Source: Chitinivibrionales bacterium | GTDB taxonomy: Bacteria; Fibrobacterota; Chitinivibrionia; Chitinivibrionales; WJKA01 | Assembly (NCBI GenBank): GCA_014728215.1 | Contig: WJLZ01000187.1 | Span: forward strand, 1-51,496 | Length of the DNA: 51,496 nt | Direction of reading: 5' to 3' | Shown: positions 3,891 through 46,958 of the stretch, piece by piece | Position numbering within the stretch: position 1 is the first letter of the stretch | Layout: the number at the start of each line of letters is the position of its first letter | Position numbers and translations under genes: made by a program | Notes under the pieces: generated by a model | What the model saw: only the letters and a program-made list of their open reading frames with translations | Databases searched by the model: none | What the model was told of the DNA's origin: nothing

Positions 3891-5296
3891 TTATGCGAGG
3901 CGCTTGATCCCCAGTTTTTTCATCCGGGCTTCGAGGGTGGTCCGTTTGATATCCAGGAGGGCGGTGGCGCCGTTCGGGCCGCTTACCCGCCCGTTGCTGA
4001 TTTTCAGGGCCCATAGGATATGTTGTCGTTCATTTTCCCTGAGTGTCGTAATAGTCTTAGTCTGTTCCGTCCGGGGTTCGGGAATCCATCCGCCCACTTT
4101 GAGTGTCTCGCCATCGCCGAGAATAACGGCCCGTTCGATGACATTTTCCAGTTCCCGGATATTGCCGGGGTGGTAGGCGGTGAGCCGGTCGATGACTTTT
4201 GCCGATGTCTGGGTGACGCTAATACCGGTTTTGAGGGCATATTTTTTAACAAAATGGTGTATCAGCAGGGGGATGTCTTCCTTCCGTTCCCGCAGGGGCG
4301 GTAGATGGAGGGGGAAGACATTGAGCCGGTAATAGAGGTCTTCTCTGAACCGTCCTTCCTTCACGGCCTTGATCAGGTCGCGGTTTGTGGCGGCGAACAT
4401 CGACCCGCATGGGCATCGAATTTCCCAGCCGCTGGAATTCACCTTCCTGAAGTACTCGGAGCAGTTTGGTCTGGAGGGTGGGAGGGAATTCGCCGATCTC
4501 ATCCAGAAAAATGGTTCCGGAGTGGGCCAGCTCGAAGCGGCCGGGTTTTCGCCGGTGGGCACCCGTAAAGGCTCCTTCTTCGTGGCCGAAAAGCTCACTC
4601 TCGATCAATTCGGCGGGCAACGCCGCACAGTTGATCGTCACCAATGGACGGTTACTCCGGTTACTGTTGTTGTGAAGTGCCCGGGCGATAAGCTCCTTGC
4701 CGGTTCCGGTTTCGCCGGTAATCAGTACGGTGCTGTTGGTGGGTGCGACCTTCTCAACGGCCTTTAGTACCATCCAAAACGAGTCGCTGCGGGAGATGAT
4801 CTCCCCAAAATTGCTTCGTGCCTTGATCTCTTCCTGAAGATAGATCGTTTCTTCTTCCAGCTGTTCCTTGAGTTTGCGAAGGTTTTTTTCCTTTTCGATG
4901 AGTTTTTTTTCGGCATTTTTCATCGCCGTGATATCGGTAATAAAGCCCTCGATAACGTTCCCTGGTCCCCGTTGGGGGGCAGGGGACCGCGATGCCCCGT
5001 TCCCAGAGCCAGCGGATATGATCATCGCGGGTGGTGATACGGTATTTCACTTCAAAATGCCGCATCTCGCCGAGACTCGCCTCCACCTCCTCCTTGACCC
5101 GGTCGCGGTCGTCGGGAAGAATAAGGCTGTTGTAGGAAATTGTACGGTTGCCGATTAATTCATCGGGAGTATACCCGGTAAGCTTTGTACACCCCTCACT
5201 GACAAACTCCATGGTCCAGTGATTATCGTTGAGATACCGGTACGCCATGCCCGGGAGATTACTCAGAAGGGTTTTCAGTTGTCGAGTCGTTTCCAC
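3891..5296 (-). pseudogene. PAS/AAA+/Fis sigma-54-dependent activator, two frameshifts
   Basis: Three overlapping frames together spell one NtrC-type enhancer-binding protein. A PAS domain comes first (from a GTG at 5296, about 100 residues), then a short coiled coil, then the AAA+ core. The core shows Walker A GETGTGKE, the [15 protein letters not shown] sigma-54 contact loop, Walker [11 protein letters not shown] and the arginine-finger region. A Fis-type HTH ends the protein near 3891. The first break lies at the run of six G at 4974-4979; adding one base would restore the frame. The second is at about 4395-4402, where VDV should run into FAATNRDL; losing one copy of a 5-bp gttcg repeat would explain it. 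It starts 13 bp after the kinase gene, so kinase and regulator look like a pair. Sequencing error cannot be excluded for the homopolymer site. Confidence 0.8.
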
Positions 5297-15539: not shown

Positions 15540-18500
15540 TTGAAAACTATTGCATCCGCAATAAAAATTTATCGAGTTATCGTTCTGGTTTTACTGGTTG
15601 TGGGAATTCAAACCTCGTATGCATTTATGACTGTTGATGCAACCAGTAATGCAGGGGTACTCTACGAAGATGTAAAATTCGGATGGAACCATACTATTGG
15701 GAATGGAGTCAATCGGCTGCTTGTTTTCAGCATATCGGGCGCACAGTGGGATAACAATAACACAAATGCCGCTCGAATTGACAGTATCAAATTTAACAAC
15801 AAAAAGGCAATCTATGCGGCATCATCCTATTATGGGACAAATTCTTTATGTTCACAGATATGGTATATGCTCGAGGATTCTCTTCCTGCCGCCGGAACCT
15901 ATCGATGTTCGGTGTTTTTTAAGGGAGAATTTGATCCCGGTTCCGCGGGGGCAATTTCCTTTTTTGGCGCCGCCCAGCAAGCCCCTGAAGCGGAAGATTC
16001 AACAACACTGACATCCGGGACAAACATTTTAACTGATGTTACGACGATAACCGACGGGGCATGGCTGGTTGATGCCCTCTTTGTCAACGGAGGGGATGAT
16101 CCCGCTCCAACTGAATCGGGACAACAGGAAATGTGGGATATTACTAATTGGGGAATATATCACAGTGCGGCAAGTAGACGGCAAATCGGTACCGCGGGAA
16201 ACGCGGGCATGGGATGGACTTCAGCCCCCGCTTCTCAGAACGGATGGGCGCATGTCGTCTGTGCATTCGCTCCCGATAATTCTCCGGGCGGCACAATCAC
16301 TATCCAGGACAACAACGGGTATACAAACGACAATACCCCCCTTATTACCGTAGTTCATGCTAACGCAAACCAGATGGCCATAACACTCGACACCAATTCA
16401 TACTCCTTCATACCTGTGGCATCGACTTATAACGGCATTACCTTTACTTCCGAAGGTAAAAACATTGTCTGGACGAAATTTACCGATGGTTCCAATCCAT
16501 CGGCATGGGTCAAAGACTCCACAATCTACGATATCACCCCACCGACATCAGCGATAATAACAAGCGGTTCATTTATCCCCGACACATGGCATCCTCATGA
16601 TTCTGTTAAAGGAACAATGTCCGACGGTTCGGGGGAAGTAGCCGGGGGGGACTCGGTAAAAATCACCATCAAGGCACCGGGGACAGGGAATCGTTACTGG
16701 GACGGCTCAGCCTGGTTGTCAACCGAAACATGGTTGAAAGCGACCCTCGCAAGCGGGGTCTGGTCCTATGAAATCGATACAGCGTCACTCAATGAGGGAG
16801 GCTCGGGAACATATACCATATCCTCCCTGGCCTATGATAAAGCGGGAAATGTGCAATCATCTTCCGGAACCGGTTCCTTTTCCTACGACGCCCCCGGACC
16901 GGAAAATCCTTCCATTAGTGTCGAGGATGGAAACGGGTATTCGAATACAACTACGATTAGCTGCCATCTTTCGGCAGACCAGGCTACCGGGGTGAAGGTC
17001 CTTGAAGGCTCCAACAGTCAAAATCCTCCTGCCGGCGGGTCGTATGTCGCTTTTTCCGATCCTCAACTCCAGAACGTGACTGTCGGCTCGACCGGTGGAT
17101 GGAAATATCTCTGGTCACGATTCAGGGATTCTCAGGGATATGAATCCTACTGGGTTGTGGACAGTACATTCTATGACGGTACCCCGCCCAATTCCGATAT
17201 CTCAACCACCGGCGGTTTCAATGCTTCATCCTGGGGTGATTCGATTAAGGGAAGTGCCACCGACGCCGCTCCGCAATCCGGGATAGCTTCGGTCAAAATC
17301 AGTATTTTCAACCAGTCCACCAGTCAGAACTGGAACGGCAGTGGATGGCAATTTGCAGAAGGGGATACGATCTGGCTGTCTGTCACAGGCACAACTTCGT
17401 GGGAATACGAACTCCTCGACGCCGGTCTTGTCGACGGTACCTGTCTTATTCAGTCCCGGGCCGAAGATAATGCGGGGAATCTGCAGATCGTGCTCGATAC
17501 CACCTATATCACCTATGACAACACGCCGCCCTCGGGATCAGTAACAATTTCCGACAACAACGGCTATACCAACGACGCCGACCCGCCCCTGACTATTACG
17601 TCATCGAATGCAGACAACATGCGGCTTGCTTTCGGCGCCGATACCACTACGTGGAAAGTGTATGCCACCCCCGACAGTATCCCTGTTGCGGCCGGGGGAG
17701 ACGGTCCGGTGAGTGTGTATGCGCAGTTCAAGGATGCCGTAGGAAATGTTTCCGGATGGGTGAGTGATAATACAATCTACGACGGCGCCGATCCGCAATC
17801 GGCTATTACCACGACGAGTACCTACAACAGCGGCGCCTGGCCCGGAGCGGTATCGGGCACTGCAGCCGATTCGACCTCGGGTGTGGAACAGGTGCTGGTC
17901 CAGGTCGAGCGGGTTTCACCGCCTGGGTACTGGACCGGTTCGGGGTGGGGGAGCGCCGGTTTTCTCTCGGCAACACTTACTTTCGGAGCCGCAAATTCAT
18001 GGAACTGGTCGCTGAATATTCCTGTGGGCAGTTTGAGTAACGGTCAGTACAATATCACGTGTAAAGCAGTCGACTCATCGGGCAACGAGCAGGCCACAGC
18101 CACCGCGGCATCCTTTGCCTATGACAGCAGTGGTCCGGCGGGCGCTCAGATTGCGATTATCGACAGCAGCGGCTTCACCGCCGATCCAACGCCGCCCCTG
18201 TCGCTCTATGCTACCGATGTTGTCGAAATGAGAATCGGCCTGGCGGCAAGCGATACTATCTCCTGGAAAAACTACAGCACCACCGACAGTATCGATATCT
18301 CGGGCGTGGGATCGGGCAATGGTGCGCGAATCTATGTGCAGTACCGCGATGCCAACGATAACCGCTCAATATGGATCAGTGATTCCACCACCTATGATAT
18401 CACTCCGCCTTCAGCAATAATAACCACGGCCGGAACATTCAACAGCACGAGCTGGAGCGGACGAATCCAGGGGTCTTCCTCGGATAATGCAGCGGGTGTT

Positions 18501-21500
18501 TCGCTCATTGAAGTAAGCATTCAGAGCCAGCTGAATTCCACCTGGTGGGACGGTTCCGCCTGGACCGCATCCGCCACTCCCATATGGCTTCCTGCAACCG
18601 GCGCCGGTTCCTGGTATTACCCCCTTGCCGCATCTAATCTCACCGACGGTGTTTTTTCGGTCTGGGCCCGGGGGATCGACCGGGTCGGTAACCTGCAGAG
18701 TTCTCTTGCCGCGGGAGACATTACCTATGACAATACCCCTCCCCTTAATCCGGAAATTCTGATTACCGATCAGAACGGCTATACCCGCGATACAGACCCT
18801 TATCTGCGGCTGACTGCAAGCGGCGCCGACAGCATGCGGATCGCTCTGTCACAGAATCCTCTTGCAGTGTGGAAACCCTGGAATTCGGCAGACAGCATTA
18901 CCATTTCTTCGGGCGGTGACGGGGCAAAAATTATCTACGCCCAGTTCAAGGACAGCGTGGGGAATGTGGGGGCCTGGGCGAGCGACACGACAACATTTGA
19001 TATTACCCCGCCTACAAGTCTGGTGATCACTCCTGCTCCCGCTTCAGTGATGAACCCTTCGGCATGGATCGATACGGTAAAAGGAACAGCTTCCGATCCG
19101 ACTGCAGGAATACAATCGGTGCGTATCAGCATACAAAGCAGGGTGAGTGGACGATTCTGGAATGGTAATGCGTGGGTTGACGGCGATTCGTTATGGCTTT
19201 CTGCAACCGGTACGGTGTCATGGCACTATCCAATAAATGATAATCAGTTCACCGATACCGCCTATACTGTGGCTTCACGGGCGGTCGACAGCGCAGGTAA
19301 TGTCCAGCAGATCCCTGCGAAAAATCATTTCCTCTTCTATCAGCCGCCGGTTGCAGGGTTCGATGCTCGGGGGAGCGCACTGAGGGCAACGGCGGTTCAA
19401 TTTACCGATACTTCAAAGGGCGCCATTACCGGATATCTGTGGGATTTCGGTGATGGTAATACGTCAACAGAGCAGAATCCGACTCATGTTTATCAGACGG
19501 CCGGGTCCTATCTTGTCGGGCTTATCGTTGATGGCCCCGGGGGAAAGGATACCGCTTTTCTGACCGATTCACTTCTTGTGTATGAAGAAGACCAGAATCC
19601 GATCAGGCTTGATGGACAGTATATCAATGATACGACCGTAGCATTATCATTTGAAGGCCATTCGGATATAAGTACATCTCTCTTCGAACCCCCCTCTGCC
19701 GATTCGATCCAGTTGTGGATCCGGCCAAATGCTCTTCCCACCGATCAGAATTTGGGAACTCAACTTACGAAATACAGTGTATCTAACCTGCAAAACAGGG
19801 GAGATCCTGCTTTCGATACGGTTACTGTCCCGCAACTCGCGTCCGGCGATACGGCATACGGATTTATGACATCAGTGGAATGGATACACGGTCATCCCTC
19901 AGGGTTCAGATCGATCAACGGTGATCTTGTTGTAATGGAAGACACAACCCGGCCGGTTAATGATCTGATTATGACCGGCACCTATCTGGGAGGGGACTCG
20001 ATCCGGCTGACTCTCGACAGCATATCGAGCATCGACACACAGTATGTTGCTCGAATCGGCATATGGTATGGTCTTTCCCAGACCGGAGATTTTTCAGATA
20101 CTTCATCCACCCGGTGGTATGATGTTTCGACCATTATAGCCGGAACCGTTGCCGATACCTGGTCGGTTACTCTTTCCGACCCGCTTTTTGCCGGTGAATC
20201 CAGAACCCTTTATGTACGGGCTGTTCTGGAAGGAAAGAATCTTCTGTACAGCGAGGATAGTGCAAAGGCCGACTTTACGGTTGGCAATCCCCGGCCCGAC
20301 AATCCGGTCGTGCTGCGGGCCACGGCGCTCAATTCGGAAACAATCCGGCTTTCGTGGAGTGAAATCTCCGGTGTCGACAGTATTAAAATATGGTACGGCA
20401 CGCAGGAGATCCCCGAAGACCCGCCCGGAGCCCTCACGCTGATGACTCTGGTTCCCGGTGCTACCGATACCGTTGATACCGCCGAAGGGCTCAATGCCAA
20501 TACCCGCTACCGGTTCGGCCTCCAGATACGTAAAAACGGCCTCTGGTCTCTTGTCACGCAGAATTCATCGGCAACCGATTCGACTCCTGCCGCTGATACG
20601 GGAAGTATTGTCAATTCCATCGATATCGTCGATGCCCGGTTCGATACTTCGGTCAACCAGATCATTATCACCTGGCGAGTCGATCATTACGACAATATCG
20701 ACCGGCGTTATGGGATACATCTGGATACCAGCTTCTGCAGCCTCGATACCCCGGCGGTCTGGCTCCCGGTCACTGATACATTCAATGTCGATTCGATTGA
20801 ATTTAACCATGATGAGCTTGTGTTCGATGCTCTTTACTGTATCTCGATGTGGCTCAAGCGGAGTGGCGGGGCGCCCTCCCTTCCCACCGATTCATCCAGA
20901 AAAACCCTGGAGACGCCGTCATATACATGGCAAAGCGTGACCTATTTCACCCGGGACACGGTCAAACTGTTCAACCGGAATGTCCGCCTGTGGAAAGACA
21001 GTACCTATACGATTCCGCCCACGACTGATATTATTTATAATTATTCACCCGACACTGCGCTTCTGAAGGGTCTCGATCCGGTGGGAGTGGGGATGTATTT
21101 CAAAAACCCGCAGCCGTCCCAGCCTTTCTATCTGGGATTTGCCTATGATTCGATACCATCGGGGTATACAGCCGGCGATATCCGCTTATACCGCTTTATC
21201 GGTACAGAATATGTGGTGGAACGGAATACGGTACTGGATACATCCCTCGATCTGATTTACATAAAAACCAACGCACTCTATTCCAACGACCTGAAAATCC
21301 CCCTTATTCCCATGATCGATACGGCCTCGCCCGAGATTACTTTTGAGAGTGAAACCACAACGGTTGTCGATATGGCGGTACAGAGCACGATATCGGATAC
21401 TTTTATTCTCGGCGACAACGTGGGGAATGCCCGGTGGCGGCTCTACTATGCAAAGGGCGGGGAATCGATCGACAAACCCGCTCCGGATAGTTCGGGAATC

Positions 21501-23069
21501 CTGAGTTCGACTTCCGATACGATCGTGAGTTTCATTGACAGCCGGGGGACCGAAGACAACGGCATGCGGATTCTGCTTGTTGTCGATGACGGTGTTCATG
21601 TGGATACGGTTAATCTTTCGCGGCAGACAGTCCGTCCCCTGTCCGATCCGCTCGCCACCGAGGCCATGGAATGGTATCCCGTGCATACCACCGCCACGCC
21701 GGAAAGTGCATCGGTAGCTTTCATGATGAGAAACACCGTGCAATCGGGAGCATCATGGTCCTACAACAGGAAGCGGGCCCGGATATTCAGGTGGTTCCCC
21801 TGCGAGGATAATCGATACGATAACGAGAAATGGATTGAATATTCGGATAAATACGATTCACTGGGTTATTTTGACTGCCTTCCGGGACGTCTGATCTGGA
21901 TAAAAACAAAGGAAAATGAATCGGTAGATTTCGGAAAAGCCGTAACGCTTTCGCTCAAAGACACCTTCAACCTCGAGCTTCCTCCCAACGAATGGACCGA
22001 TTGTGCGATACCATTCAAGTTTGACATGCGGATCAGTGATATCCTTGCGGCCACCGGTTCCCGGGCCGACAGCTGTGAATTCTACCGTTGGGAACAAGGC
22101 GGCGGCCCCGAGGGGGATATTTTCCTTTCCGAAGCTCTCTATGTTCCCGGGTTGATCGGATCGGATACCATGACCATTGTATCCGGTGATGCCGCGGGGC
22201 ATACGGTGTACAACCGTGCCGATACCATGGTAACCCTGAAATTCCCACCGGTTCCTCTGAGCATGTCGACCGTTCCGCAGAGCGAAACGACCTTCCTTGC
22301 CCGCCGAAAGAAGACCAGTGAATGGCGCATACGGCTTGTGCCTCGGGTGAAAGGAATGGGGAAAATTACCTCGGTGTATTGCGGTTATTCGCCGGGGGAG
22401 GGAATGGTCACCTATTACCGGAAACCGCCGTCACACGGCAACATATCGGTGAGTATCTATGATAAAGCCGGCGGTCGGCAATACGGACACAGTCTGGTCC
22501 ACCGACTGGAAGGGAACGGCGCTGTTTTCCCGCTCCTTTTCTCCAACGACTCCGAACACAAAAAGCAGATAACCGCTCACTACGAGATCCTGTCATCGAC
22601 GCCGGAGAATTATCGCATTAAACTATTCGATCCTGCAACAAAAACCTGGGTAGACGACAGTGCCGACTGCAAAACCATCGTTTCGGGCGGGGCGAAGGAG
22701 TACCGCTATCTGGTTGTTGGTGACAACACGTTTCTGCAGCAGTTCAAAACCGGTTTCAAAACATGGAACCTTGCCCTGGTCAATACCTTTCCCAATCCTT
22801 TCAGAAATACCATTACGATCCTCTATTCCTTGCCCTATTCGGGCATCCGGGAACTTCATTTCAGCATATTCGATATGCTCGGACGGACTGTCTGGGACCT
22901 GAAAATCCCCTCCCGGAGCATGCGCCCCGGTCTCAACCGTATCACCTGGAACGGCCTCAACCGCACCGGCGACAAAATCGCCTCAGGCACATACATGCTC
23001 CGCATGACCGCTGTCGACAACAAACAGGAAACGCGGTTGTTCAAGCGAAGGTTGACCTATGTGAAATAG
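15540..23069 (+). CDS. Giant modular surface/secreted protein with Ig-like repeats, PKD and sorting domain
   Basis: This is a 2509-aa protein starting at TTG (15540) with a nearby gaaagtggggg site and a signal peptide cut after SYA (about residue 28). Residues 30-245 form a beta-rich, lectin-like N-terminal module. Residues about 250-1268 are five tandem units of roughly 200 aa. Each unit opens with an I-x-D-x-N/S-G-Y/F-T-x-D motif; its second half begins TPPxSAI and contains WDGSAW-like strands, as in bacterial Ig-like adhesin repeats. A PKD domain follows (about 1270-1350; YLWDFGDGNTSTEQNPTHVY), then fibronectin-III-like modules (about 1350-1800) and further beta domains. The last 100 residues (NPFRNTITILYSL, SGTYMLRM) are a FlgD/T9SS-type C-terminal domain. 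No catalytic domain was recognised. It is probably an outer-surface or exported adhesin. Confidence 0.85.
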   Translation: MKTIASAIKIYRVIVLVLLVVGIQTSYAFMTVDATSNAGVLYEDVKFGWNHTIGNGVNRLLVFSISGAQWDNNNTNAARIDSIKFNNKKAIYAASSYYGTNSLCSQIWYMLEDSLPAAGTYRCSVFFKGEFDPGSAGAISFFGAAQQAPEAEDSTTLTSGTNILTDVTTITDGAWLVDALFVNGGDDPAPTESGQQEMWDITNWGIYHSAASRRQIGTAGNAGMGWTSAPASQNGWAHVVCAFAPDNSPGGTITIQDNNGYTNDNTPLITVVHANANQMAITLDTNSYSFIPVASTYNGITFTSEGKNIVWTKFTDGSNPSAWVKDSTIYDITPPTSAIITSGSFIPDTWHPHDSVKGTMSDGSGEVAGGDSVKITIKAPGTGNRYWDGSAWLSTETWLKATLASGVWSYEIDTASLNEGGSGTYTISSLAYDKAGNVQSSSGTGSFSYDAPGPENPSISVEDGNGYSNTTTISCHLSADQATGVKVLEGSNSQNPPAGGSYVAFSDPQLQNVTVGSTGGWKYLWSRFRDSQGYESYWVVDSTFYDGTPPNSDISTTGGFNASSWGDSIKGSATDAAPQSGIASVKISIFNQSTSQNWNGSGWQFAEGDTIWLSVTGTTSWEYELLDAGLVDGTCLIQSRAEDNAGNLQIVLDTTYITYDNTPPSGSVTISDNNGYTNDADPPLTITSSNADNMRLAFGADTTTWKVYATPDSIPVAAGGDGPVSVYAQFKDAVGNVSGWVSDNTIYDGADPQSAITTTSTYNSGAWPGAVSGTAADSTSGVEQVLVQVERVSPPGYWTGSGWGSAGFLSATLTFGAANSWNWSLNIPVGSLSNGQYNITCKAVDSSGNEQATATAASFAYDSSGPAGAQIAIIDSSGFTADPTPPLSLYATDVVEMRIGLAASDTISWKNYSTTDSIDISGVGSGNGARIYVQYRDANDNRSIWISDSTTYDITPPSAIITTAGTFNSTSWSGRIQGSSSDNAAGVSLIEVSIQSQLNSTWWDGSAWTASATPIWLPATGAGSWYYPLAASNLTDGVFSVWARGIDRVGNLQSSLAAGDITYDNTPPLNPEILITDQNGYTRDTDPYLRLTASGADSMRIALSQNPLAVWKPWNSADSITISSGGDGAKIIYAQFKDSVGNVGAWASDTTTFDITPPTSLVITPAPASVMNPSAWIDTVKGTASDPTAGIQSVRISIQSRVSGRFWNGNAWVDGDSLWLSATGTVSWHYPINDNQFTDTAYTVASRAVDSAGNVQQIPAKNHFLFYQPPVAGFDARGSALRATAVQFTDTSKGAITGYLWDFGDGNTSTEQNPTHVYQTAGSYLVGLIVDGPGGKDTAFLTDSLLVYEEDQNPIRLDGQYINDTTVALSFEGHSDISTSLFEPPSADSIQLWIRPNALPTDQNLGTQLTKYSVSNLQNRGDPAFDTVTVPQLASGDTAYGFMTSVEWIHGHPSGFRSINGDLVVMEDTTRPVNDLIMTGTYLGGDSIRLTLDSISSIDTQYVARIGIWYGLSQTGDFSDTSSTRWYDVSTIIAGTVADTWSVTLSDPLFAGESRTLYVRAVLEGKNLLYSEDSAKADFTVGNPRPDNPVVLRATALNSETIRLSWSEISGVDSIKIWYGTQEIPEDPPGALTLMTLVPGATDTVDTAEGLNANTRYRFGLQIRKNGLWSLVTQNSSATDSTPAADTGSIVNSIDIVDARFDTSVNQIIITWRVDHYDNIDRRYGIHLDTSFCSLDTPAVWLPVTDTFNVDSIEFNHDELVFDALYCISMWLKRSGGAPSLPTDSSRKTLETPSYTWQSVTYFTRDTVKLFNRNVRLWKDSTYTIPPTTDIIYNYSPDTALLKGLDPVGVGMYFKNPQPSQPFYLGFAYDSIPSGYTAGDIRLYRFIGTEYVVERNTVLDTSLDLIYIKTNALYSNDLKIPLIPMIDTASPEITFESETTTVVDMAVQSTISDTFILGDNVGNARWRLYYAKGGESIDKPAPDSSGILSSTSDTIVSFIDSRGTEDNGMRILLVVDDGVHVDTVNLSRQTVRPLSDPLATEAMEWYPVHTTATPESASVAFMMRNTVQSGASWSYNRKRARIFRWFPCEDNRYDNEKWIEYSDKYDSLGYFDCLPGRLIWIKTKENESVDFGKAVTLSLKDTFNLELPPNEWTDCAIPFKFDMRISDILAATGSRADSCEFYRWEQGGGPEGDIFLSEALYVPGLIGSDTMTIVSGDAAGHTVYNRADTMVTLKFPPVPLSMSTVPQSETTFLARRKKTSEWRIRLVPRVKGMGKITSVYCGYSPGEGMVTYYRKPPSHGNISVSIYDKAGGRQYGHSLVHRLEGNGAVFPLLFSNDSEHKKQITAHYEILSSTPENYRIKLFDPATKTWVDDSADCKTIVSGGAKEYRYLVVGDNTFLQQFKTGFKTWNLALVNTFPNPFRNTITILYSLPYSGIRELHFSIFDMLGRTVWDLKIPSRSMRPGLNRITWNGLNRTGDKIASGTYMLRMTAVDNKQETRLFKRRLTYVK

Positions 23070-36915: not shown

Positions 36916-38061
36916 ATGAAAAGCTCTTTTTTCACTGTACCGGCGTTGTTATGCATTCTGATGGTAGTTCCCGGGCTCATCAACGGCCAGCAACGAGTAA
37001 GGGTAAAAGATGTTTCTGTTGTTGATGGTCTCGAGGATTTGCAGCTCTACGGGTATGGCCTGGTTGTCGGTCTCAACGGCACCGGAGATCGTCAGCAGAC
37101 AATATTTACCAACCAGACAGTCATTAATATGCTGAAAAACATGGGGATAGAGCTTCCGGACAAATACATGCGGCTTCGGAATGTGGCAGCAGTGATCGTC
37201 ACCGGGACATTGAAACCCTTTCTGAAACGGGGCACCCGGTTTGATATCACGGTATCATCGCTCGGTGATGCTACCAGTTTGGAGGGGGGAACCCTTATCA
37301 TGACGCCGCTTCTTGGCCCTGATGGTGTCATTTATGCTTCAGCCCAGGGGCCACTGGCCACCGGTGGATACGATGTCCGCAACAGGGGACTGGTGCATGT
37401 CAAGAAAAATCATACACTTGTTGGGCGGATCCCCGACGGCGCCCTTGTTCAACGCCAATATGAACTGGAACCGCTCCGGGCCGCTGAAATATCGATTTCA
37501 CTGAATACACCAGATTTTTCCTCAGCTTCAGCCATGGCAAAGGCGATCAATGCCCGGTTTGAAGAGACCACAAATTCGAATATCGCCAAAGCTGTTGACG
37601 CCGCAACCGTGGCGCTCGATTACAGCCTGATCACTCGAGATACCATTCGAAACAAGATGAATCTCGTTGAATTTATTTCAGCTGTGGAAAATGTCGAATT
37701 CGGTGTTTCCTCTCACGCCCGGGTAGTAGTCAATGAACGGACCGGTACAATTGTGGCCGGTTCAGCAGTAAAAATCTCAGAAATCGCTGTCACCCATGGG
37801 TCGATTAAAGTGGAAATCGTGAATAAGCCCGAAGTTGTTCAGCCGCAACCCTTTTCGATGGGACAGACAGCCATTATTCCCGAACCGGAAGTCGTTGTTG
37901 ATGAAAAGGATGCCGAACTGGTGGTTTTAGACGGCACGACGACAGTCTCCGACTTGGCCCATGCCCTTAATTCACTGGGCGTTGCACCCCGTGATGTCAT
38001 CTCGATTTTTCAGGCAATCAAACAGGCCGGCGCGCTGCATGGAGAGCTGATAATTTTGTAA
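36916..38061 (+). CDS. flgI: Flagellar P-ring protein FlgI
   Basis: This 381-aa protein, typical FlgI length, has a signal peptide (ending NGQQ) followed by VRVKDVSVVDGLEDLQLYGYGLVVGLNGTGD, the hallmark FlgI N-terminus. RGTRFDITVSSLGDATSLEGGTLIMTPL, VVVNERTGTIVAGSAVKI and the C-terminal DLAHALNSLGVAPRDVISIFQAIKQAGALHGELIIL are all canonical. It forms the P ring around the rod. The usual next gene flgJ is not downstream; a gene on the opposite strand follows. Confidence 0.97.
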   Translation: MKSSFFTVPALLCILMVVPGLINGQQRVRVKDVSVVDGLEDLQLYGYGLVVGLNGTGDRQQTIFTNQTVINMLKNMGIELPDKYMRLRNVAAVIVTGTLKPFLKRGTRFDITVSSLGDATSLEGGTLIMTPLLGPDGVIYASAQGPLATGGYDVRNRGLVHVKKNHTLVGRIPDGALVQRQYELEPLRAAEISISLNTPDFSSASAMAKAINARFEETTNSNIAKAVDAATVALDYSLITRDTIRNKMNLVEFISAVENVEFGVSSHARVVVNERTGTIVAGSAVKISEIAVTHGSIKVEIVNKPEVVQPQPFSMGQTAIIPEPEVVVDEKDAELVVLDGTTTVSDLAHALNSLGVAPRDVISIFQAIKQAGALHGELIIL

Positions 38062-38093: not shown

Positions 38094-39755
38094 CTACCTA
38101 TAAAAATAACAAGCGCTTGTGAATGCGTATGTTTTGGAGTCGTCCTCCTTTTTGCACTCGGCTTCGGCACGAAGGTATCCCCTTGAGGAGGGTAAACCGG
38201 TTATTGCAATTTTCTCGGTGAATTCCCAGGGAAAGTTAGCGCATTTTCGATGAAATACTGTTTTTTCGCTCCCATCGGGGGCATATTCGCCGCAAAAGAG
38301 TCGAATCTCTTCGGGCTTGCCAAACTCATAAGTGCTTTTCATTACAAGGTATAATGAGCTGTAATCGAGCTTCGTTTCGTTGTTGGAAATGAGGGTGTCC
38401 TTTTCATCGGGTGAACTTCCGAGCCCAAGATAGGGGCCGTTGGTAACAAAGGTTCGCCCTTCTTTGATAGCGTTAACCAGCTCCAGGGTGGAGACAACTT
38501 TTCCGTATGTGCCTGTTTTAGCATAGCCTAAGTACCGTTCGAACATCTCTTTTACCAGAAGAAAGGGGATTCCAAGATACCGGTACCGGTTAAAATCGCC
38601 GTGGGCATCATTGCCGGCGATCAACGGAATTCTTAATCCCTGCTGTAATTTTTTTATCCATAAGGCTTTAGACCGTTCCCATGACACGGTAAACCCGGTA
38701 TTGACTCCCTGTATACCGTCGAGATTCGCCTCTAAATCTTCAGAATTCCATATGCCCCGATGGAGAAAGATCTTTTGGAGTCGCCCCGGCTTCGCCCCGA
38801 TATGCGCAGCAACTGCCGCACCGTTCTGATCATGAATAGCGTTCACGGCTTCATGTATCGATAATTCTTTTGTATGCAAAACGTTACGGCGGGCCCCGTC
38901 GCTGGAGCCGGGAATAAAATCGGAAAGGCCCAGGCCGCAAAGATGGACTACGTTCTTTCTTGAATTCAGGCATGAAATCTCTTCACCTAAAACAATGAGT
39001 GTTTTAAACTTACGCGTTTTGATTTCCCTGGAGAGTTCGCTCCATCGCTGCAAGGCTGGATCCTGCTCCAGATAATTATCCATCCTGCAGGCAATATCAT
39101 AGGAATGATCGGTAATTCCAATAAAATCAATGCCCGAAGCATGGCCGAGCCTGTCGATTGCGGCAACCGGCGGTCCGAATTCAACATGACTCTGAGAAAA
39201 CTGAGAATGGACATGGAGATCTCCATAGGAACAGTTGTCAGAACCGGGCAGGGGAGTGTCGGATACCCGGCAAATGAGCGGTGTTTTTGATGAAGTTATA
39301 AGATTATCATTAATAACCGGATAGGTTCTTTTTCTTTTCCCTTTCCGGACTTCGGCTTTGCCGTTGACATAAATGGTGGTGTTTTTCAGGCGACTCCGTG
39401 GAATTTCAAAGAGATAGACCTTGCTTCTCCAGGACATCGGGTGGTCGATCAGGTGGTTGCCGGGACTTTCAAATTTAACCGTAAACGGCCTTTCCGATTT
39501 GCTTGAGACACTGAGTGTAACTTCGGTAATATCAACAGGAAAGCGATCAATATCATTGATCAGCAACATGACCGGAAGGTCGTGGCCCGGATCGAGCCGT
39601 GCTGGCATATCGAACAGTATTTCCGGCGATCTTCTATAAAGAAAGTTAGGAAAAAACCTGAAAAACCGGAAATGGGTCTCGGCATAGAGAAAGAGAAAGG
39701 GCACAAAGGGTAGTGTACTTTCCGGCCCGGGCAATTGAAGGAGTTCTGGGATCAT
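38094..39755 (-). CDS. CehA/McbA-type PHP metallohydrolase
   Basis: This 553-aa protein has an N-terminal beta-rich region (about 1-190) of unknown role, followed by a PHP domain. The PHP domain has DLHVHSQFS, IGITDHS, a glutamate in LGEEIS, AAHIGAKPG and AGNDAHGDFNRYR, all expected metal ligands of the CehA/McbA family. Family members hydrolyse esters or phosphoesters; the substrate here cannot be read. No clear signal peptide was found. It is convergent with flgI, with 32 bp between the two stop codons. The C-terminal 110 residues are beta-rich. The start is the ATG preceded by a weak AGG. Confidence 0.75.
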   Translation of the reverse strand: MIPELLQLPGPESTLPFVPFLFLYAETHFRFFRFFPNFLYRRSPEILFDMPARLDPGHDLPVMLLINDIDRFPVDITEVTLSVSSKSERPFTVKFESPGNHLIDHPMSWRSKVYLFEIPRSRLKNTTIYVNGKAEVRKGKRKRTYPVINDNLITSSKTPLICRVSDTPLPGSDNCSYGDLHVHSQFSQSHVEFGPPVAAIDRLGHASGIDFIGITDHSYDIACRMDNYLEQDPALQRWSELSREIKTRKFKTLIVLGEEISCLNSRKNVVHLCGLGLSDFIPGSSDGARRNVLHTKELSIHEAVNAIHDQNGAAVAAHIGAKPGRLQKIFLHRGIWNSEDLEANLDGIQGVNTGFTVSWERSKALWIKKLQQGLRIPLIAGNDAHGDFNRYRYLGIPFLLVKEMFERYLGYAKTGTYGKVVSTLELVNAIKEGRTFVTNGPYLGLGSSPDEKDTLISNNETKLDYSSLYLVMKSTYEFGKPEEIRLFCGEYAPDGSEKTVFHRKCANFPWEFTEKIAITGLPSSRGYLRAEAECKKEDDSKTYAFTSACYFYR

Positions 39756-39869
39756 TGGCCTCGAGATTCAACCATTGTTTTTCTTTCTACGGATGTTCCT
39801 CAACGATTATAGAATATATTTTATGGTGGCATAGAACAATAATGATAAACGTAAGCGAAGGGTACTCAA

Positions 39870-41195
39870 ATGAGTTATAATGTACGGGATTTTGGTGCTG
39901 TCGGTGACGGCATGGTGTGCGATCAAAAGGCGCTTCAAACCGCCATGGACAGGGCGTCGGAGGATGGCGGCGGGACAGTTGTTGTTCCCGGCGGCATGTA
40001 TAAATCGGGTATGCTGCGCCTTCGCTCAAATATCACCCTTCACTTAGAATCCGGTGCGCGAATAGAGGCGGATGACAACCAGTCGCTGTATCCGGTTTTA
40101 GGGCCGACCCCCTTTGGAAACCTTCCCGGGCACATACAGGCACTCCTGTATGCCGCGGAGGTTGAGAATGTTTCCATTACCGGTCAGGGAACGATCGACG
40201 GTAACGGCAACAGTGAGTTGTGGGGGGAGATGTCCAAAGATGCAACATTTCGCCCGGCATTGGTCTTTTTCGATTCATGCCGAAACGTAACGTTCACCAA
40301 TGTCAGCCTGTTCTATTCTCAATACTGGACTCTTCATCTCAAGCATTGTACCGATGTTGTTCTTTCGGGCCTCAGAATCACCTCTCATCCACGGAGGATT
40401 AACGCCGACGGAATCGATCCTGACGGCTGCAGAAATGTCTGTATCAGCGATTGCATTGTGGATACCGGTGATGACAGCCTGGTGTTTAAGAGCACCGAGG
40501 GTGAGCCGTGTGAAAACATCACCGTTTCCAACTGCATACTCCGCTCGAGTTGCCAGGCCATCAAATTCGGCACCGAAAGCAAGGGGCCGATCCGAAATAT
40601 CACAATTTCGAACTGCATAATCAGAGACTCGGAACGGGCGCTTACCATGTTTTTAAAAGATAATGGTCCTTACGAAAACATCATACTTTCAAATATTATT
40701 GCCGAAGCACGAAACGAGCTGCCCTTTATGATCGATATTGCCCCCCGCGATCCGGAAACATCGAACCCTCAAAGCATTCGTTCGGTATTTTTTGATACCA
40801 TTCAGTTCACGGGCCCCGGAAGAATGCTTATCGAGGGGACGCCGGAAAACAGGATCGAAAATCTTTCCATTAAAAATCTTCGTTGGAATATCACTGGTGA
40901 AAAACTGGATTTATCATCCCATATAAAAACTGCCGGGACCGCCCGAGCAGCGTCGGATCCGGAGGCCGAGAATTACCTTGCCAACCCCTTTCATTTGATT
41001 GCCGTGCATGTAACGGGGTTCTCCCTCCAAAATGTTCAAATCATTGACACCAGGGCATCAGACGAAGCAGACAGGGGAATGTTTTATCTGAAAAGAGTTG
41101 ATACCGGAACAATCGAAAATGTTTCTTTGAGCGCAATGCCTTCAAATATGCCCGAAAAAGAAATTCATGAATGCAGGAAACTGCAAATGAAATAA
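39870..41195 (+). CDS. GH28-family polygalacturonase-like protein, cytoplasmic
   Basis: This 441-aa right-handed beta-helix protein has an N-terminal DFGAVGDG segment typical of the pectate-lyase-3/GH28 entry strand. NADGIDPDG, with its catalytic-type Asp, and DTGDDS, with the Asp-Asp pair, are the GH28 catalytic motifs. The later RIK-type basic motif is replaced by QAIKFGTES. There is no signal peptide, so it probably trims imported oligogalacturonides inside the cell (inference). It precedes the UxaE-like gene by one oppositely oriented gene, which fits a galacturonate theme. RBS: gcgaaggg upstream of the ATG. Confidence 0.8.
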   Translation: MSYNVRDFGAVGDGMVCDQKALQTAMDRASEDGGGTVVVPGGMYKSGMLRLRSNITLHLESGARIEADDNQSLYPVLGPTPFGNLPGHIQALLYAAEVENVSITGQGTIDGNGNSELWGEMSKDATFRPALVFFDSCRNVTFTNVSLFYSQYWTLHLKHCTDVVLSGLRITSHPRRINADGIDPDGCRNVCISDCIVDTGDDSLVFKSTEGEPCENITVSNCILRSSCQAIKFGTESKGPIRNITISNCIIRDSERALTMFLKDNGPYENIILSNIIAEARNELPFMIDIAPRDPETSNPQSIRSVFFDTIQFTGPGRMLIEGTPENRIENLSIKNLRWNITGEKLDLSSHIKTAGTARAASDPEAENYLANPFHLIAVHVTGFSLQNVQIIDTRASDEADRGMFYLKRVDTGTIENVSLSAMPSNMPEKEIHECRKLQMK

Positions 41196-41281
41196 GAATG
41201 GGGGAATGGAGTATTGGGAGTTTCGGGGAGCAAGAAACATTACCTTGTTGTCACGCTGTCATCCCACCACCCCAACGCTTC

Positions 41282-42169
41282 TCAATTCCTGTCTCGCTCG
41301 CTGAACAGGAAATCGTAGGATGGAAGATTTTCGGGACGGTCGACATCGGCTTTAATCTTGATTAGTTTGTCGACATTATCGTGAAAGCAGTCGACCAGGT
41401 CGGGATCGAATTGCCTTCCACTGTTTTCGCGGATAATATCAACCGCCACTTCAATAGGGTAGGCGTCTTTATGAGGACGGGGTGAGGTAAGCGCATCGAA
41501 GGCGTCCATTAGCCCGACAATCCTTCCAACCAGGGGGATTTTTTTCTTTTTTAATCCAACAGGATACCCATTGCCATTCCATTGTTCATGGTGGGTAAGT
41601 GCTATCCGACGGGCATAATTCAGGATTTCCGAGTCTGAATCGGCCAGCATATTGCCGCCGGTGACCGTATGAAACCTGATTATTGCAAATTCTTCAACGG
41701 TAAGTCGCCCTTTTTTCATAAGAATTTCATTTGGGATGGCGACCTTGCCGATATCATGCATCGGTGCGGCGAGTTCGATTGCAGAAATCTCATCATTGGA
41801 AAAGCCGGCTGCACGAGCAAGTGCTCCGCTGTATTTGCTGATACGTTTGATATGGTCATAAACACTCTTATCTCTGTATTCACTTGCAACTGCAAGCTTG
41901 AATATTGTTAAGGCATAGGAAGCAGCCAGCTCGGCATTCTCTGATTTCAGCATTTCCAGTTCGCTTGTGGCACTTTTTAAAGATTTGTCGAGAATTTGGT
42001 TCTGATGAGTGAGTTCATTAATCCGGCGCCGTAATTCGAAGAGTTCATCATTTTTGTTTTTTTGAGGTGGGGGTGAAGATGATTTCGAAACGGGTGAGGT
42101 TGATGGCTTATTTTTAGGAGCCGCCTTGCGGATCGGTGTTTTCTTTGACGGGTTTTTGCGTGAAGGCAT
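41282..42169 (-). CDS. HD-GYP-type phosphodiesterase with basic tail and coiled coil
   Basis: This is a 295-aa protein. A Lys/Ser/Pro-rich N-terminal tail (1-40) precedes a coiled coil (45-80). The HD-GYP domain follows: HDIGKVAIPNEIL, HTVTGGNMLA, ALTHHEQWNGNGYPVGL, ARIVGLMDAFDALTS-like segment and GRQFDPDLVD. All the metal-binding histidine and aspartate residues expected for cyclic-di-GMP hydrolysis are present (HD...HHE...GYP). No receiver or membrane segment is present, so it is probably soluble. It could regulate motility together with the nearby flagellar operon (inference). Confidence 0.85.
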   Translation of the reverse strand: MPSRKNPSKKTPIRKAAPKNKPSTSPVSKSSSPPPQKNKNDELFELRRRINELTHQNQILDKSLKSATSELEMLKSENAELAASYALTIFKLAVASEYRDKSVYDHIKRISKYSGALARAAGFSNDEISAIELAAPMHDIGKVAIPNEILMKKGRLTVEEFAIIRFHTVTGGNMLADSDSEILNYARRIALTHHEQWNGNGYPVGLKKKKIPLVGRIVGLMDAFDALTSPRPHKDAYPIEVAVDIIRENSGRQFDPDLVDCFHDNVDKLIKIKADVDRPENLPSYDFLFSERDRN

Positions 42170-42326
42170 AAATCCCTACTTCATATATGGCTATTCTTTT
42201 TTTGAATCTTATCATTATGGAAGTCTGAAAGCAAGCAGATTTTGTGATAAAACAACCATTACCTATTTTAAAACTTCTCTTGATAAAAATTAAATTGTTA
42301 ATTCTGCCACAAAGGGGAGATTGCTC

Positions 42327-44249
42327 ATGGCACAACCTTCAATAATCAACGCCTACCTTCTCGAAAACAACATTCGGATACAAAACAATCCCGCCGTATC
42401 ACCCGACCTCGTGTTGGATTTTAAAGGTCTGGTTGAAGAAATCGCCGAAGAAAAAGCTGCTCTTCTTAAATTAAAAGACAATTCCAAAGCTGACGCTGTT
42501 TCACAGGGGCTGAAAAAACTGATTCTCTGGCCGAAATCGAAATTCGAGGTGGGAAACACAACTTTTTATCTGATCGAATCAAAAGCTACCGGTGATTCAT
42601 CACTGATAACGTTAGGAGCTGAGTCGTTACCCTTTGAAAATATTGAAGTTATAGATGGTAGCCTGACAGTGATTCCGCTCTACTGGAGCAATCTGATTCG
42701 CCTGAAAAACGTTGTACAGGAAAATGATCGGTCATCGACAATTTTCCCCAAAGCAGAAGGCATTCTCGAGCATACGAGTCTTGGCGTGGGCGCCCGATTT
42801 ACCACCCTTCACTGGCCCGCGGTTGCCTGGTCAATGAAACAGTGTAATCTCTCAATGACCGCAAATCAGAATTCCATTCCCCGTGAGCTTGTGTATGATG
42901 TTAAAGCCATGCACGAAGATCGTCTGGCACAAGTCCCTTTTCCCTTTATCGGCAGAAATGTTCCGGAAGGCCATCAGGGGCAGTCGGTGCAGGGAATGTC
43001 CCACGCGTCGATAATGACCTATCTGAAATACGGCTTTCATAACAATCGAATAGCATGGGGATTCAATGCCGACCATCAACCGATAGGAGGACGGTTCGAT
43101 TCAATCGAAAATGAACTGGTTGAAGGCAGTCTTTTTGCCACCTATATCACCTATGATCTCAGCCCCGAACTCACACAATACAATACTATTGATGATGATC
43201 AGGAGCTTGAAAAGGAATTCGAGCAGACCGTTGATAAGGATATTTATGCAAAAGTCCTTGAAATACTTAAAGAAAAGAGTATTTCCGTTAATGAAACGCT
43301 TGTAAAAAAGCTCATAACCTATCTCACGCCGGCCATGAATAAAATGCAAAAGCGTGATAAGCTCTATACAAAAATCAGGGAAGATAATTTCACGACTGCT
43401 GCAGGCAGAAAGTTTTTCAAGGAGTTATCGATCGATGAACTTCCGGGCCAGACAACAACCGAAACACTGGCGGTGTGTCTGGCAATGGCCGAATCAATGG
43501 ACGTAAAATTTAACTATGTGGCTCCAAATATAGGATTTACGAAGAATTTTCCTTATCCGGACAACGATGAACTGCAGAAAAAAATCGTTGCACTCTATGA
43601 AATAGCCGAAAAATTTAATATATCTTTTGGTTTTCACTCCGGAAGCGGCAAATCCGCCGAAAATTATGCCGTTATCGGGAAGGCGACCAGGGGTAATTTT
43701 GAGGTTAAAACCTCCGGACGGTATACCTATGAGATGGGGAAAGCGCTGAGTGAAACAATTTATCCCGATGATAAAAAGCTGTGGGAAGACTGGTACAATT
43801 TCACCAAAGATCTTGCTGTTGAAGGTGCTTTTTCGGACAATGAGACACAGCGAAAGTTTGCCCGGGAATTCATCGAACACGCCGCAAATGCCGAAAATAT
43901 CGATAGTAACGGCATTTTTTCATCAATTGAAAGCCTTAGAAATGCTCTTGATTCGCTAAAACCGTCACCGGACCACATGTTCTGGTTTGAGTATAATTTT
44001 CTCTTTGTTCTGGCAGGGGAGGGGGCCACTACCCTTTTGGGCGACCACTCTTCCAAAGGTTATGTACAACGAAAACGATTCTATTCGATCAGCGATGAAG
44101 CCCGGCTTCGGTATGCAAAAAATGTTGCCTCCTACCTCCTGTTTCTGACTCATACTACCGGGCTTATTTCCGATACCATTTTTAACAATGCATCAAAGAA
44201 GCTGAATTCATACCAACAGTATGATCATCTTTTAACTGATATTTCATAA
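42327..44249 (+). CDS. UxaE-like tagaturonate epimerase family protein
   Basis: The protein is 640 aa from the ATG at 42327, which has aaaggggag upstream; an earlier TTG at 42321 is less likely. The C-terminal half has APNIGFTKNFPYPD, ISFGFHSGSGKSAENYAVIGKATRGNFEVKTSGRYTYEMG and a final HTTGLI, similar to the Thermotoga UxaE pattern (LHSGS, VKTAG). GMSHASIMTYLKYGF and NADHQPIGGRFDSIENEL mark a metal/sugar-binding region. It is longer than UxaE (about 480 aa). If it is an epimerase it would convert tagaturonate to fructuronate in galacturonate breakdown, in line with the GH28 protein upstream. Assignment is by pattern only. Confidence 0.6.
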   Translation: MAQPSIINAYLLENNIRIQNNPAVSPDLVLDFKGLVEEIAEEKAALLKLKDNSKADAVSQGLKKLILWPKSKFEVGNTTFYLIESKATGDSSLITLGAESLPFENIEVIDGSLTVIPLYWSNLIRLKNVVQENDRSSTIFPKAEGILEHTSLGVGARFTTLHWPAVAWSMKQCNLSMTANQNSIPRELVYDVKAMHEDRLAQVPFPFIGRNVPEGHQGQSVQGMSHASIMTYLKYGFHNNRIAWGFNADHQPIGGRFDSIENELVEGSLFATYITYDLSPELTQYNTIDDDQELEKEFEQTVDKDIYAKVLEILKEKSISVNETLVKKLITYLTPAMNKMQKRDKLYTKIREDNFTTAAGRKFFKELSIDELPGQTTTETLAVCLAMAESMDVKFNYVAPNIGFTKNFPYPDNDELQKKIVALYEIAEKFNISFGFHSGSGKSAENYAVIGKATRGNFEVKTSGRYTYEMGKALSETIYPDDKKLWEDWYNFTKDLAVEGAFSDNETQRKFAREFIEHAANAENIDSNGIFSSIESLRNALDSLKPSPDHMFWFEYNFLFVLAGEGATTLLGDHSSKGYVQRKRFYSISDEARLRYAKNVASYLLFLTHTTGLISDTIFNNASKKLNSYQQYDHLLTDIS

Positions 44250-44484: not shown

Positions 44485-45534
44485 CTATCGAATCACGTCA
44501 ATGCCGTCGCCTTCAACGACATCACCGATTTCCCAGAAAGGATGATCCTGTTCGGAAAAAGCCTTTTTGATATCATCGAGCGCCGTCGGATCAATTGTTG
44601 CAAGCAGGCCGCCGGAGGTTTCAGGGGTGAAAAGCAATTGTTTTATTTCGAGCGGGATATCGGAAGCAAAGGAAACATGGTTCTGGTAGTGTGTTTCATT
44701 GCGGATTGTTCCTGCCGGGAATAGCCATTGACCGGCATAGTCGACGGCGCCGGGAAGAAATGGGATTTTTTCGAGCTGAAACCGAAGTTTCACCGAGCTT
44801 TTTTCGGCTATTTCCCAGCCATGGCCCAAAAGCGAAAAGCCGGTAATATCGGTACATCCATGAATATCAAAGCGTCTGAATATGGCTGAAGGAATCTTGC
44901 TGAGTTTTTTCATGCTTACAATCGCCTGTTCTACATGCGATTTTTCGGCCTGATCACCCTTTGACGCGGTGGTAATAATGCCGGTTCCGAGCATTTTGGT
45001 GAGAATTATCCGGTCGCCCTTGCGGGCATTGGCTTTGGTAAGAATTTTTTCCGGATGGACCAGTCCCAACACCGATAATCCGTATTTCGGCTCAGGATCA
45101 TCGATACTGTGACCACCCGCAAGAGCCGCTCCGGCTTCTTTGACCTTTTCCGCACCGCCGCGAAGAATTTCGGAGAGAATTTCCGAAGGAAGTTTGCAGG
45201 GGAAACCGCAAATGTTGAGCGCAAGAATAACTTCACCTCCCATGGCATAAACATCACTCATTGAATTGGCTGCGGCAATGGCGCCAAAATCATAGGGATC
45301 ATCGACAATAGGAGTAAAAAAATCCAGTGTCTGAATAACAGCAAGATCATCGCTCACCTTATACACGGCCGCGTCATCAGCGACGCCAAGCCCCACCAGG
45401 AGTTTCGGGAACTCGGAAGGGGTGAACATATTTTTCAGTGGCTGCAGAACCTGCGCCAGGGTTTCAGGCCCGATTTTGGCCGCTCACCCGGCAGCAGAGG
45501 TCATCGCCGTCAATCTGATTTCTTTATCGGACAA
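44485..45534 (-). CDS. selD: Selenide, water dikinase SelD, itself a selenoprotein (in-frame TGA)
   Basis: The conventional frame starts at 45429 with MFTPSEF, but the reading continues upstream through a TGA at 45484-45486. Read as selenocysteine it gives LTAMTSAAG-U-AAKIGPETL, the conserved N-terminus of SelD. Starting at the TTG at 45534 (GGAG 8 bp upstream), the protein is 349 aa, with Sec at 17 and Lys at 20, exactly the positions of catalytic Cys17 and Lys20 in E. coli SelD. Further motifs: GVADDAAVY, DFFTPIVDDPYDFGAIAAANSMSDVYAMGG, GGHSIDDPEPKYGL, TDITGFSLLGH, TPETSGGLL. SelD makes selenophosphate from selenide and ATP. Downstream gene in a desulfurase-DUF3343-selD operon. Confidence 0.93.
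45448..45470 (-). ncRNA. Putative bacterial SECIS element within selD
   Basis: Counting bases after the TGA on the coding strand, CCTG at 16-19 pairs with CAGG at 31-34, extended by two G-U pairs (14-15 with 35-36), leaving an 11-base loop with UGG. Location and size fit the bacterial SECIS hairpin, which sits just downstream of UGA and binds SelB. Weak by eye but correctly placed. Confidence 0.5.
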
Positions 45535-45579
45535 AGGATGCCGCTCCGTGTTTAAAAGTGATATAGTAATCGAAAGGAT

Positions 45580-45807
45580 TCAGAGATCCTCTACCCCATC
45601 AATTTCGATACAGCCCTGCTCAAGTATCTCGCGTGCCTGTTCTTTTTCAACACGCAAGACTCTCAGGCATACACCGCAATCGGAAGCAATATGCCTGGGC
45701 ACGGGAATCAGTGCACAGGAGAGTCCGGCCAGTTTAACCATTTTTTCTGCTTTCAATGCATAGTTGGTCGAATGTACGATTATTACCGATTGTTGCTCTT
45801 TTTTCAT
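45580..45807 (-). CDS. DUF3343 putative Se/S carrier protein
   Basis: The protein is 75 aa from the ATG that overlaps the upstream stop (TAATG, 45807); an in-frame ATG at 45816 adds three residues. It contains VIIVHSTNYALKAEKMVK, ALIPVPRHIASDCGVCLRV and a C-terminal EILEQG segment, matching DUF3343. The CxxC pair (CGVC) is the expected selenium or sulfur-handling site. These small proteins are commonly found next to selD and a NifS-like desulfurase. It probably passes selenium from the desulfurase to SelD (inference). It is separated from selD by 45 bp. Confidence 0.85.
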   Translation of the reverse strand: MKKEQQSVIIVHSTNYALKAEKMVKLAGLSCALIPVPRHIASDCGVCLRVLRVEKEQAREILEQGCIEIDGVEDL

Positions 45808-46958
45808 TATCTGCATTGCGTTAGTGCTTTAACAGCATCGATCGCTATTTCAATCTCCTCCATGGTAGTAAAATAGCTTGCTCCAAACCTGATTGTGCCC
45901 TGGGGAAACGTGCCGATTGTTTTATGTGCCGAGGGTGCGCAGTGAAGACCTACCCGGCAGCAGATCCCGAACACTTCATCTAATCGAAAGCCGGCATCGG
46001 AACAAGAAATGTCGTCAATAGAAAAAGAGACGGTTGCCGTTTGTCGCTCCGGGTCCAGTCCTCCATAGACAGTCACGTTGTGCAAAGCGCTTAATCCACC
46101 GATGAGTTGTTCACATAACTCCATTTCCCTTTTCCTGATCGACTCCACTCCCCTGCTCAAAATATAATCTACTCCCGCTCCCAAGCCGGCAATACCGACA
46201 GTATTGGGCGTTCCGCTTTCAAATTTATCAGGCAAAAAGCAGGGCTGTTGTTCGTATTCCGACTTGCTTCCGGTTCCTCCGGTGATAAAGGGTCGCACAC
46301 TGTCGACATCAACCCGTTTGCCGAACACCAGCCCGCCGGTTCCCATAGGGCCGTAGAGTGCTTTATGACCCGTAAAGACCAGAAAATCGATTGCATCACG
46401 CTCCATATGAATCGGTATTGCACCAGCGCTTTGAGCTGCATCTACGCAAAAATAGAGATCATGTTTTCGCACAATCGTGCCGATTTCAGCCAGGGGCTGG
46501 AGAGAACCGGTTACATTTGAAGCATGGTTGAGGATAATGAGTTTCGTTGATGGCCTGATCTCATTTTCGAGGGCAATTGGTGAAAGAAAACCCTGTCTGT
46601 CACAGGAGACCGTACTTATTACAATTCCTTCTTTTTCCCGTGCTCGCAGGGGGCGCATCACCGAATTATGCTCTATGCTCGAGGTGATAACATGATCGCC
46701 GGGCTCAAGAAAACCGGCAATAATATAATTGAGCGATTCGGTGGCATTACCGGTAAAAACTACCCGCAAAGAATCATCACAGGAGAACAGCGCCGCAACC
46801 GATTCCCGTGCAGAAAAGATACATCGACCGGATTCATTTGCACGGTGATGTCCTGCCCGGCCCGGATTTGCACCAATGTCATTCATAAAATGAACCATTG
46901 CCTCGGTGACACATGATGGCTTGGGAAATGAGGTTGCAGGATTATCGAGATATATCAT
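45807..46958 (-). CDS. NifS-like cysteine desulfurase (selenium-associated)
   Basis: This 383-aa fold-type I PLP enzyme has ASNVTGS and the pyridoxal Lys199 (FTGHKALYGPMGTGG). The catalytic Cys340 lies in RVGLHCAPSAHKTIGT. The N-terminus MIYLDNPATSFPKP and the overall length fit the TIGR01977-type cysteine desulfurase/selenocysteine lyase group linked to SelD. It is the first gene of the operon with DUF3343 and selD and likely supplies selenide or persulfide. It shares a divergent gap with the DUF2914 gene (46959-47123), where no clear promoter could be assigned. Confidence 0.9.
   Translation of the reverse strand: MIYLDNPATSFPKPSCVTEAMVHFMNDIGANPGRAGHHRANESGRCIFSARESVAALFSCDDSLRVVFTGNATESLNYIIAGFLEPGDHVITSSIEHNSVMRPLRAREKEGIVISTVSCDRQGFLSPIALENEIRPSTKLIILNHASNVTGSLQPLAEIGTIVRKHDLYFCVDAAQSAGAIPIHMERDAIDFLVFTGHKALYGPMGTGGLVFGKRVDVDSVRPFITGGTGSKSEYEQQPCFLPDKFESGTPNTVGIAGLGAGVDYILSRGVESIRKREMELCEQLIGGLSALHNVTVYGGLDPERQTATVSFSIDDISCSDAGFRLDEVFGICCRVGLHCAPSAHKTIGTFPQGTIRFGASYFTTMEEIEIAIDAVKALTQCR

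Follow-up and report, generated by a model that had tools for sequence, protein, structure and literature searches.

Does the selD gene of this Chitinivibrionales bacterium (Fibrobacterota), whose frame contains a single TGA, encode a selenophosphate synthetase that is itself a selenoprotein? Our analysis of the 51,496-nucleotide stretch that carries the gene (hereafter the window) indicates that it almost certainly does, codon 17 being read as selenocysteine (Sec) under the guidance of a downstream hairpin. Sec-containing SelD has long been known, and this gene is a further example that leaves the understanding of selenium biology unchanged. Sec is found in 19% of the prokaryotic SelD genes of a reference set, always at this position (Mariotti et al., 2015, PMC4561486), and SelD is among the most widespread selenoproteins, its ability to support itself having already been discussed (Zhang et al., PMC1794560). 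The Chitinivibrionales protein belongs to the same enzyme family as these Sec-SelD/SPS2 proteins and has the same single Sec position, a putative bSECIS within the coding sequence shortly downstream of the UGA and co-occurring SelA, SelB and tRNA-Sec, with no essential difference. Two aspects are modestly new: the lineage, which is little studied and for which we found no description of Sec use in the literature searched, and the pattern of Sec- and Cys-containing SelDs inside the order.

The selD frame and conservation of its TGA

The gene spans 44485–45534 on the minus strand, from a TTG start (45532–45534) to a TAG stop, and would encode 349 residues with Sec17. A Shine-Dalgarno-like GGAG (45544–45547, minus strand) lies 9 nt 5′ of the TTG, in agreement with the start and ribosome-binding site of the original prediction, and an N-terminal match to E. 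coli SelD that is ungapped from residue 2 also supports the TTG. Between start and stop, the frame contains one TGA, at 45484–45486 (codon 17). The read-through protein contains both AIRS domains and matches the selD family TIGR00476 with 373.6 bits (cut-off 125); the match begins at residue 7 and therefore runs across codon 17. Cys17 and Lys20 are the catalytic residues of E. coli SelD. Alignment with that enzyme (PDB 3u0o) has no gap from residue 2 to about residue 37, so that U17 and K20 are matched with C17 and K20, respectively, the positions that had been predicted. The two proteins are alike over their whole length in sequence, in Lys20 and in their AIRS domains, but differ at residues 17–19, which are Cys17-Gly-Cys19 in E. 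coli and Sec17-Ala-Ala19 in the protein studied here.

If the TGA were a true stop, the locus would be a pseudogene or would yield a shorter protein from an ATG at 45429. A plain ORF finder does return that 314-residue frame after the TGA, confirming that an annotated-style ORF misses the first 35 residues. However, orthologues show conservation of these residues on both sides of the TGA, a SelD lacking positions 17 and 20 would be deprived of the catalytic residues established for the E. coli enzyme, and no second selD turned up in the genome, yet selA, selB and selC are present. Termination at codon 17 is thus extremely improbable, and automatic annotation, by truncating Chitinivibrionales SelD, would drop the catalytic residues.

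Conservation also bears on the suggestion that the gene encodes an ordinary Cys-SelD in which a Cys codon (TGC or TGT) was turned into TGA by faulty sequencing or assembly, a suggestion that gains some weight from TGC being one base away and from the draft state of the source assembly. TGA occupies the same codon in four full selD orthologues of the order Chitinivibrionales (57–65% identity) and is kept in a fifth, fragmentary orthologue divided between two contigs (69% identity over its N-terminal piece). In a wider SelD collection, the site is TGA in 47 distinct sequences, from many phyla, and a Cys codon in 42. The codon is, in other words, an in-frame UGA where homologues have Cys, conserved in orthologues. 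Since independent genomes share this TGA at the identical codon, a sequencing error can for practical purposes be dismissed, and neither an isolated error nor a dying gene can explain its conservation in the order and in the wider collection. The hairpin described below likewise has the features of Sec-SelDs and not those of Cys-SelDs.

In a quick tree, the protein groups with other Chitinivibrionales Sec-SelDs, and the adjacent branch holds Sec-SelDs of Photobacterium and Aliivibrio (L049–L054; 54–56% identity), which have the same TGA and a GUU-loop hairpin 33 nt downstream. Since Photobacterium and Aliivibrio belong to a different phylum, the gene has probably been transferred horizontally at some point in this group.

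A bSECIS-like hairpin after the TGA

A bSECIS-like hairpin, UGGCGCAG-GUU-CUGC(A)GCCA, lies at 45439–45458 (minus strand), downstream of the TGA as predicted. With the T of the TGA numbered 1, its lower stem consists of pairs U29-A48, G30-C47, G31-C46 and C32-G45, A44 is bulged, and its upper stem of pairs G33-C43, C34-G42, A35-U41 and G36-C40 closes the loop G37-U38-U39. By the published distance rule, a bSECIS lies 16–37 nt after the UGA; here the apical GUU (45448–45450) follows it by 33 nt, and its first two bases include a G. Folding of the single sequence (GGCGCAG-GUU-CUGC(A)GCC, –9.8 kcal/mol) is modestly better than that of shuffles and not significant (z –0.45 to –1.4).

The strong evidence is comparative. 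In a position-specific test, the hairpin core was intact in 26 of 47 Sec-SelDs versus 2 of 42 Cys-SelDs, and the four core pairs, combined with a G at loop base 1 or 2, were found in 26/47 versus 1/42; a generic comparison of best-hairpin energies separated the two groups only moderately, the position-specific test being clearer. Pair 33-43, formed between the third position of an Ala codon and the first of a variable codon, is seen as G-C, A-U, U-A and C-G, that is, with compensatory changes. It is paired in 34 of the 47 Sec-SelDs where 24.2 would be expected, and none of 2000 shuffles reached the observed pairing. We take this unselected 47-row count as the fair covariation test, as the 25 rows of a dedicated count, which agrees with it, were picked mostly for an intact core. 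The exact core is missing in 21 of the 47 Sec-SelDs, which shows that the element does not always occupy this position, and sequences without the core may carry a hairpin elsewhere (L056, for example). In its spacing, loop and covariation, the predicted selD hairpin fits a bacterial SECIS. Such elements have previously been found in Sec-SelDs by RNAz (Mariotti et al., PMC4561486).

Selenocysteine machinery, gene neighbourhood and a second selenoprotein

The source assembly comprises 5.0 Mb in 229 contigs (96% complete, 3.4% contamination), the window being contig C187. It had been anticipated that selA, selB and tRNA-Sec would be encoded elsewhere in the genome, and all three are on contig C202, where selC (37930–38022; 61 bits, gathering score 47), called by ARAGORN as tRNA-SeC with anticodon TCA (UCA), is followed directly and on the same strand by selA (38201–39568; 509 bits, cut-off 268) and selB (39616–41511; 349 bits, cut-off 242). 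The genome holds SelA, SelB and tRNA-Sec together. The window and selCAB are on separate contigs of a fragmented assembly; the combination of Sec-SelD with SelA recurs in other genomes, and no near match was found on known plasmids.

This machinery has to be weighed against the possibility that a changed genetic code or non-Sec read-through places another amino acid (e.g. Trp) at the TGA; for insect SPS1, whose UGA lies at the same position, non-Sec read-through has been proposed (Mariotti et al., 2015, PMC4561486). A complete Sec system with a tRNA-Sec(UCA) argues against this possibility, as do the presence of Cys, not Trp, at this site in other SelDs and the TGA-free frames of selA, selB and the desulfurase. 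We consider a non-Sec reading very improbable. With Sec as the preferred reading of codon 17, SelB and Sec-tRNA(Sec) would decode the TGA with the help of the downstream hairpin, and Sec17 and Lys20 would form the reactive part of the active site. By analogy with the known families, SelD would make selenophosphate from selenide and ATP and SelA would use it to make Sec-tRNA(Sec), needed in turn to synthesize further SelD as well as one or more other selenoproteins, among them a peroxiredoxin.

selD is the last gene of an operon-like row on the minus strand, in which a TIGR01977 (EF2568-type) cysteine desulfurase family protein (45807–46958) overlaps by 10 nt a gene for a 78-residue PF11823 protein (Se_S_carrier, former DUF3343; 45580–45816), which is in turn separated from selD by 45 nt. 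From this spacing we infer a shared transcript. The desulfurase is the probable selenium donor enzyme and, together with the carrier, would probably feed selenium to SelD. On the basis of similar gene clusters, DUF3343 and YedE have been proposed to handle selenium (Lin et al., PMC5322559). The window shares with these selenium-linked DUF3343/Sec lyase-like clusters the desulfurase and DUF3343 (PF11823) next to selD, but neither a YedE-like transporter gene nor YedF was seen in it. The desulfurase also adjoins selD in relatives (L132–L135), two of which (L132 and L135) have a YedE-like PF04143 transporter gene beside selD as well. On its other side, at 39870–44249, selD has pectin/uronate genes as neighbours, encoding a GH28 polygalacturonase-like protein and a tagaturonate epimerase (UxaE) family protein. 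The window also contains one open reading frame of 2509 residues (15540–23069, plus strand).

A search for other selenoproteins identified a Sec-peroxiredoxin in the genome and in relatives. The gene (C115:13189–13812; L137:1474–2097) has a TGA at the peroxidatic Cys (FTFV-U-STE), and eight further genomes of the order retain this TGA. A short distance downstream lies an inverted repeat, UUUCUGC-GGUC-GCAGAAA, whose loop comes 17 nt after the TGA; paired changes in it can be read from the sequences of relatives (UCUCUGC-GGUC-GCAGAGA; UCUCGGC-AGUU-GCCGAGA). Thr takes the place of the resolving Cys (CPAGW in homologues), also in those relatives that were read. The presence of this gene means that SelD serves more than itself, and SelD as the sole selenoprotein of the genome is ruled out. 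As selenoproteins were sampled family by family, their number is at least two, and Sec use with complete machinery is established, on sequence evidence, in a Fibrobacterota lineage. Formate dehydrogenase and other PF00384 molybdoenzymes, a usual selenoprotein family, had no match in the source genome (G000), nor had glycine reductase GrdA, a weak negative because control genomes gave no signal either. SelU (YbbB, TIGR03167; selenouridine trait) and YqeB (TIGR03309; Se-cofactor trait, Mo hydroxylases) also had no match in this genome, with positive E. coli controls, so there is no sign of SelD serving selenouridine or a Se-cofactor. At five other places in the window, a long frame is split by one TGA; in no case does this TGA sit in a redox-like context, and the arrangement resembles neighbouring genes or antisense frames.

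Sec- and Cys-containing SelDs within the order

Among 20 checked relatives, SelA was found together with Sec-SelD in five (G003, G007, G009, G027 and G031) and with only Cys-SelD in nine (G002, G004, G010, G012, G014, G019, G021, G039 and G041); it was not found in G005, G011, G022 and G026, four genomes without any SelD match. The presence of SelA in genomes with only Cys-SelD implies that Sec in SelD is not required for Sec decoding in the order. Four of these (G002, G012, G021 and G039) combine SelA and a Sec-peroxiredoxin TGA with only a Cys-SelD, which has the motif GGCSAK and falls on a separate branch, a pattern indicating that, within the order, Sec-SelD and Cys-SelD take each other's place. 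Such a mixture among close SelA-bearing relatives offers a natural setting in which to ask what lies behind the frequent use of Sec in SelD.

The original prediction described selenium use as self-dependent. This is reasonable for the source genome, because only one selD-like locus was found in an assembly that is 96% complete, but it does not hold across the lineage, in which relatives with SelA and Sec-peroxiredoxin have Cys-SelD. It is conceivable, though unlikely, that dependence of the sole SelD on its own product makes the locus a bootstrap switch. If so, selenium starvation would shut off SelD and hence all Sec decoding, restart would require the linked desulfurase and carrier, and the four Cys-SelD relatives with Sec-peroxiredoxin, free of the loop, would be the natural comparison.

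A second, distant Sec-SelD, about 40% identical and with the TGA at the same site, was observed in G009 (L129:3603–4823) and G003 (L130, about 3990–5200), which thus carry two Sec-containing SelDs. This protein has a Cys-rich N-terminal extension of ~57 residues (CPCPADCIRHGECKKC...) with no Pfam family match. G003 has, besides its two Sec-SelDs, two full-length selA genes (C244:33656–35026 and C6:8763–10151), and may have two Sec systems.
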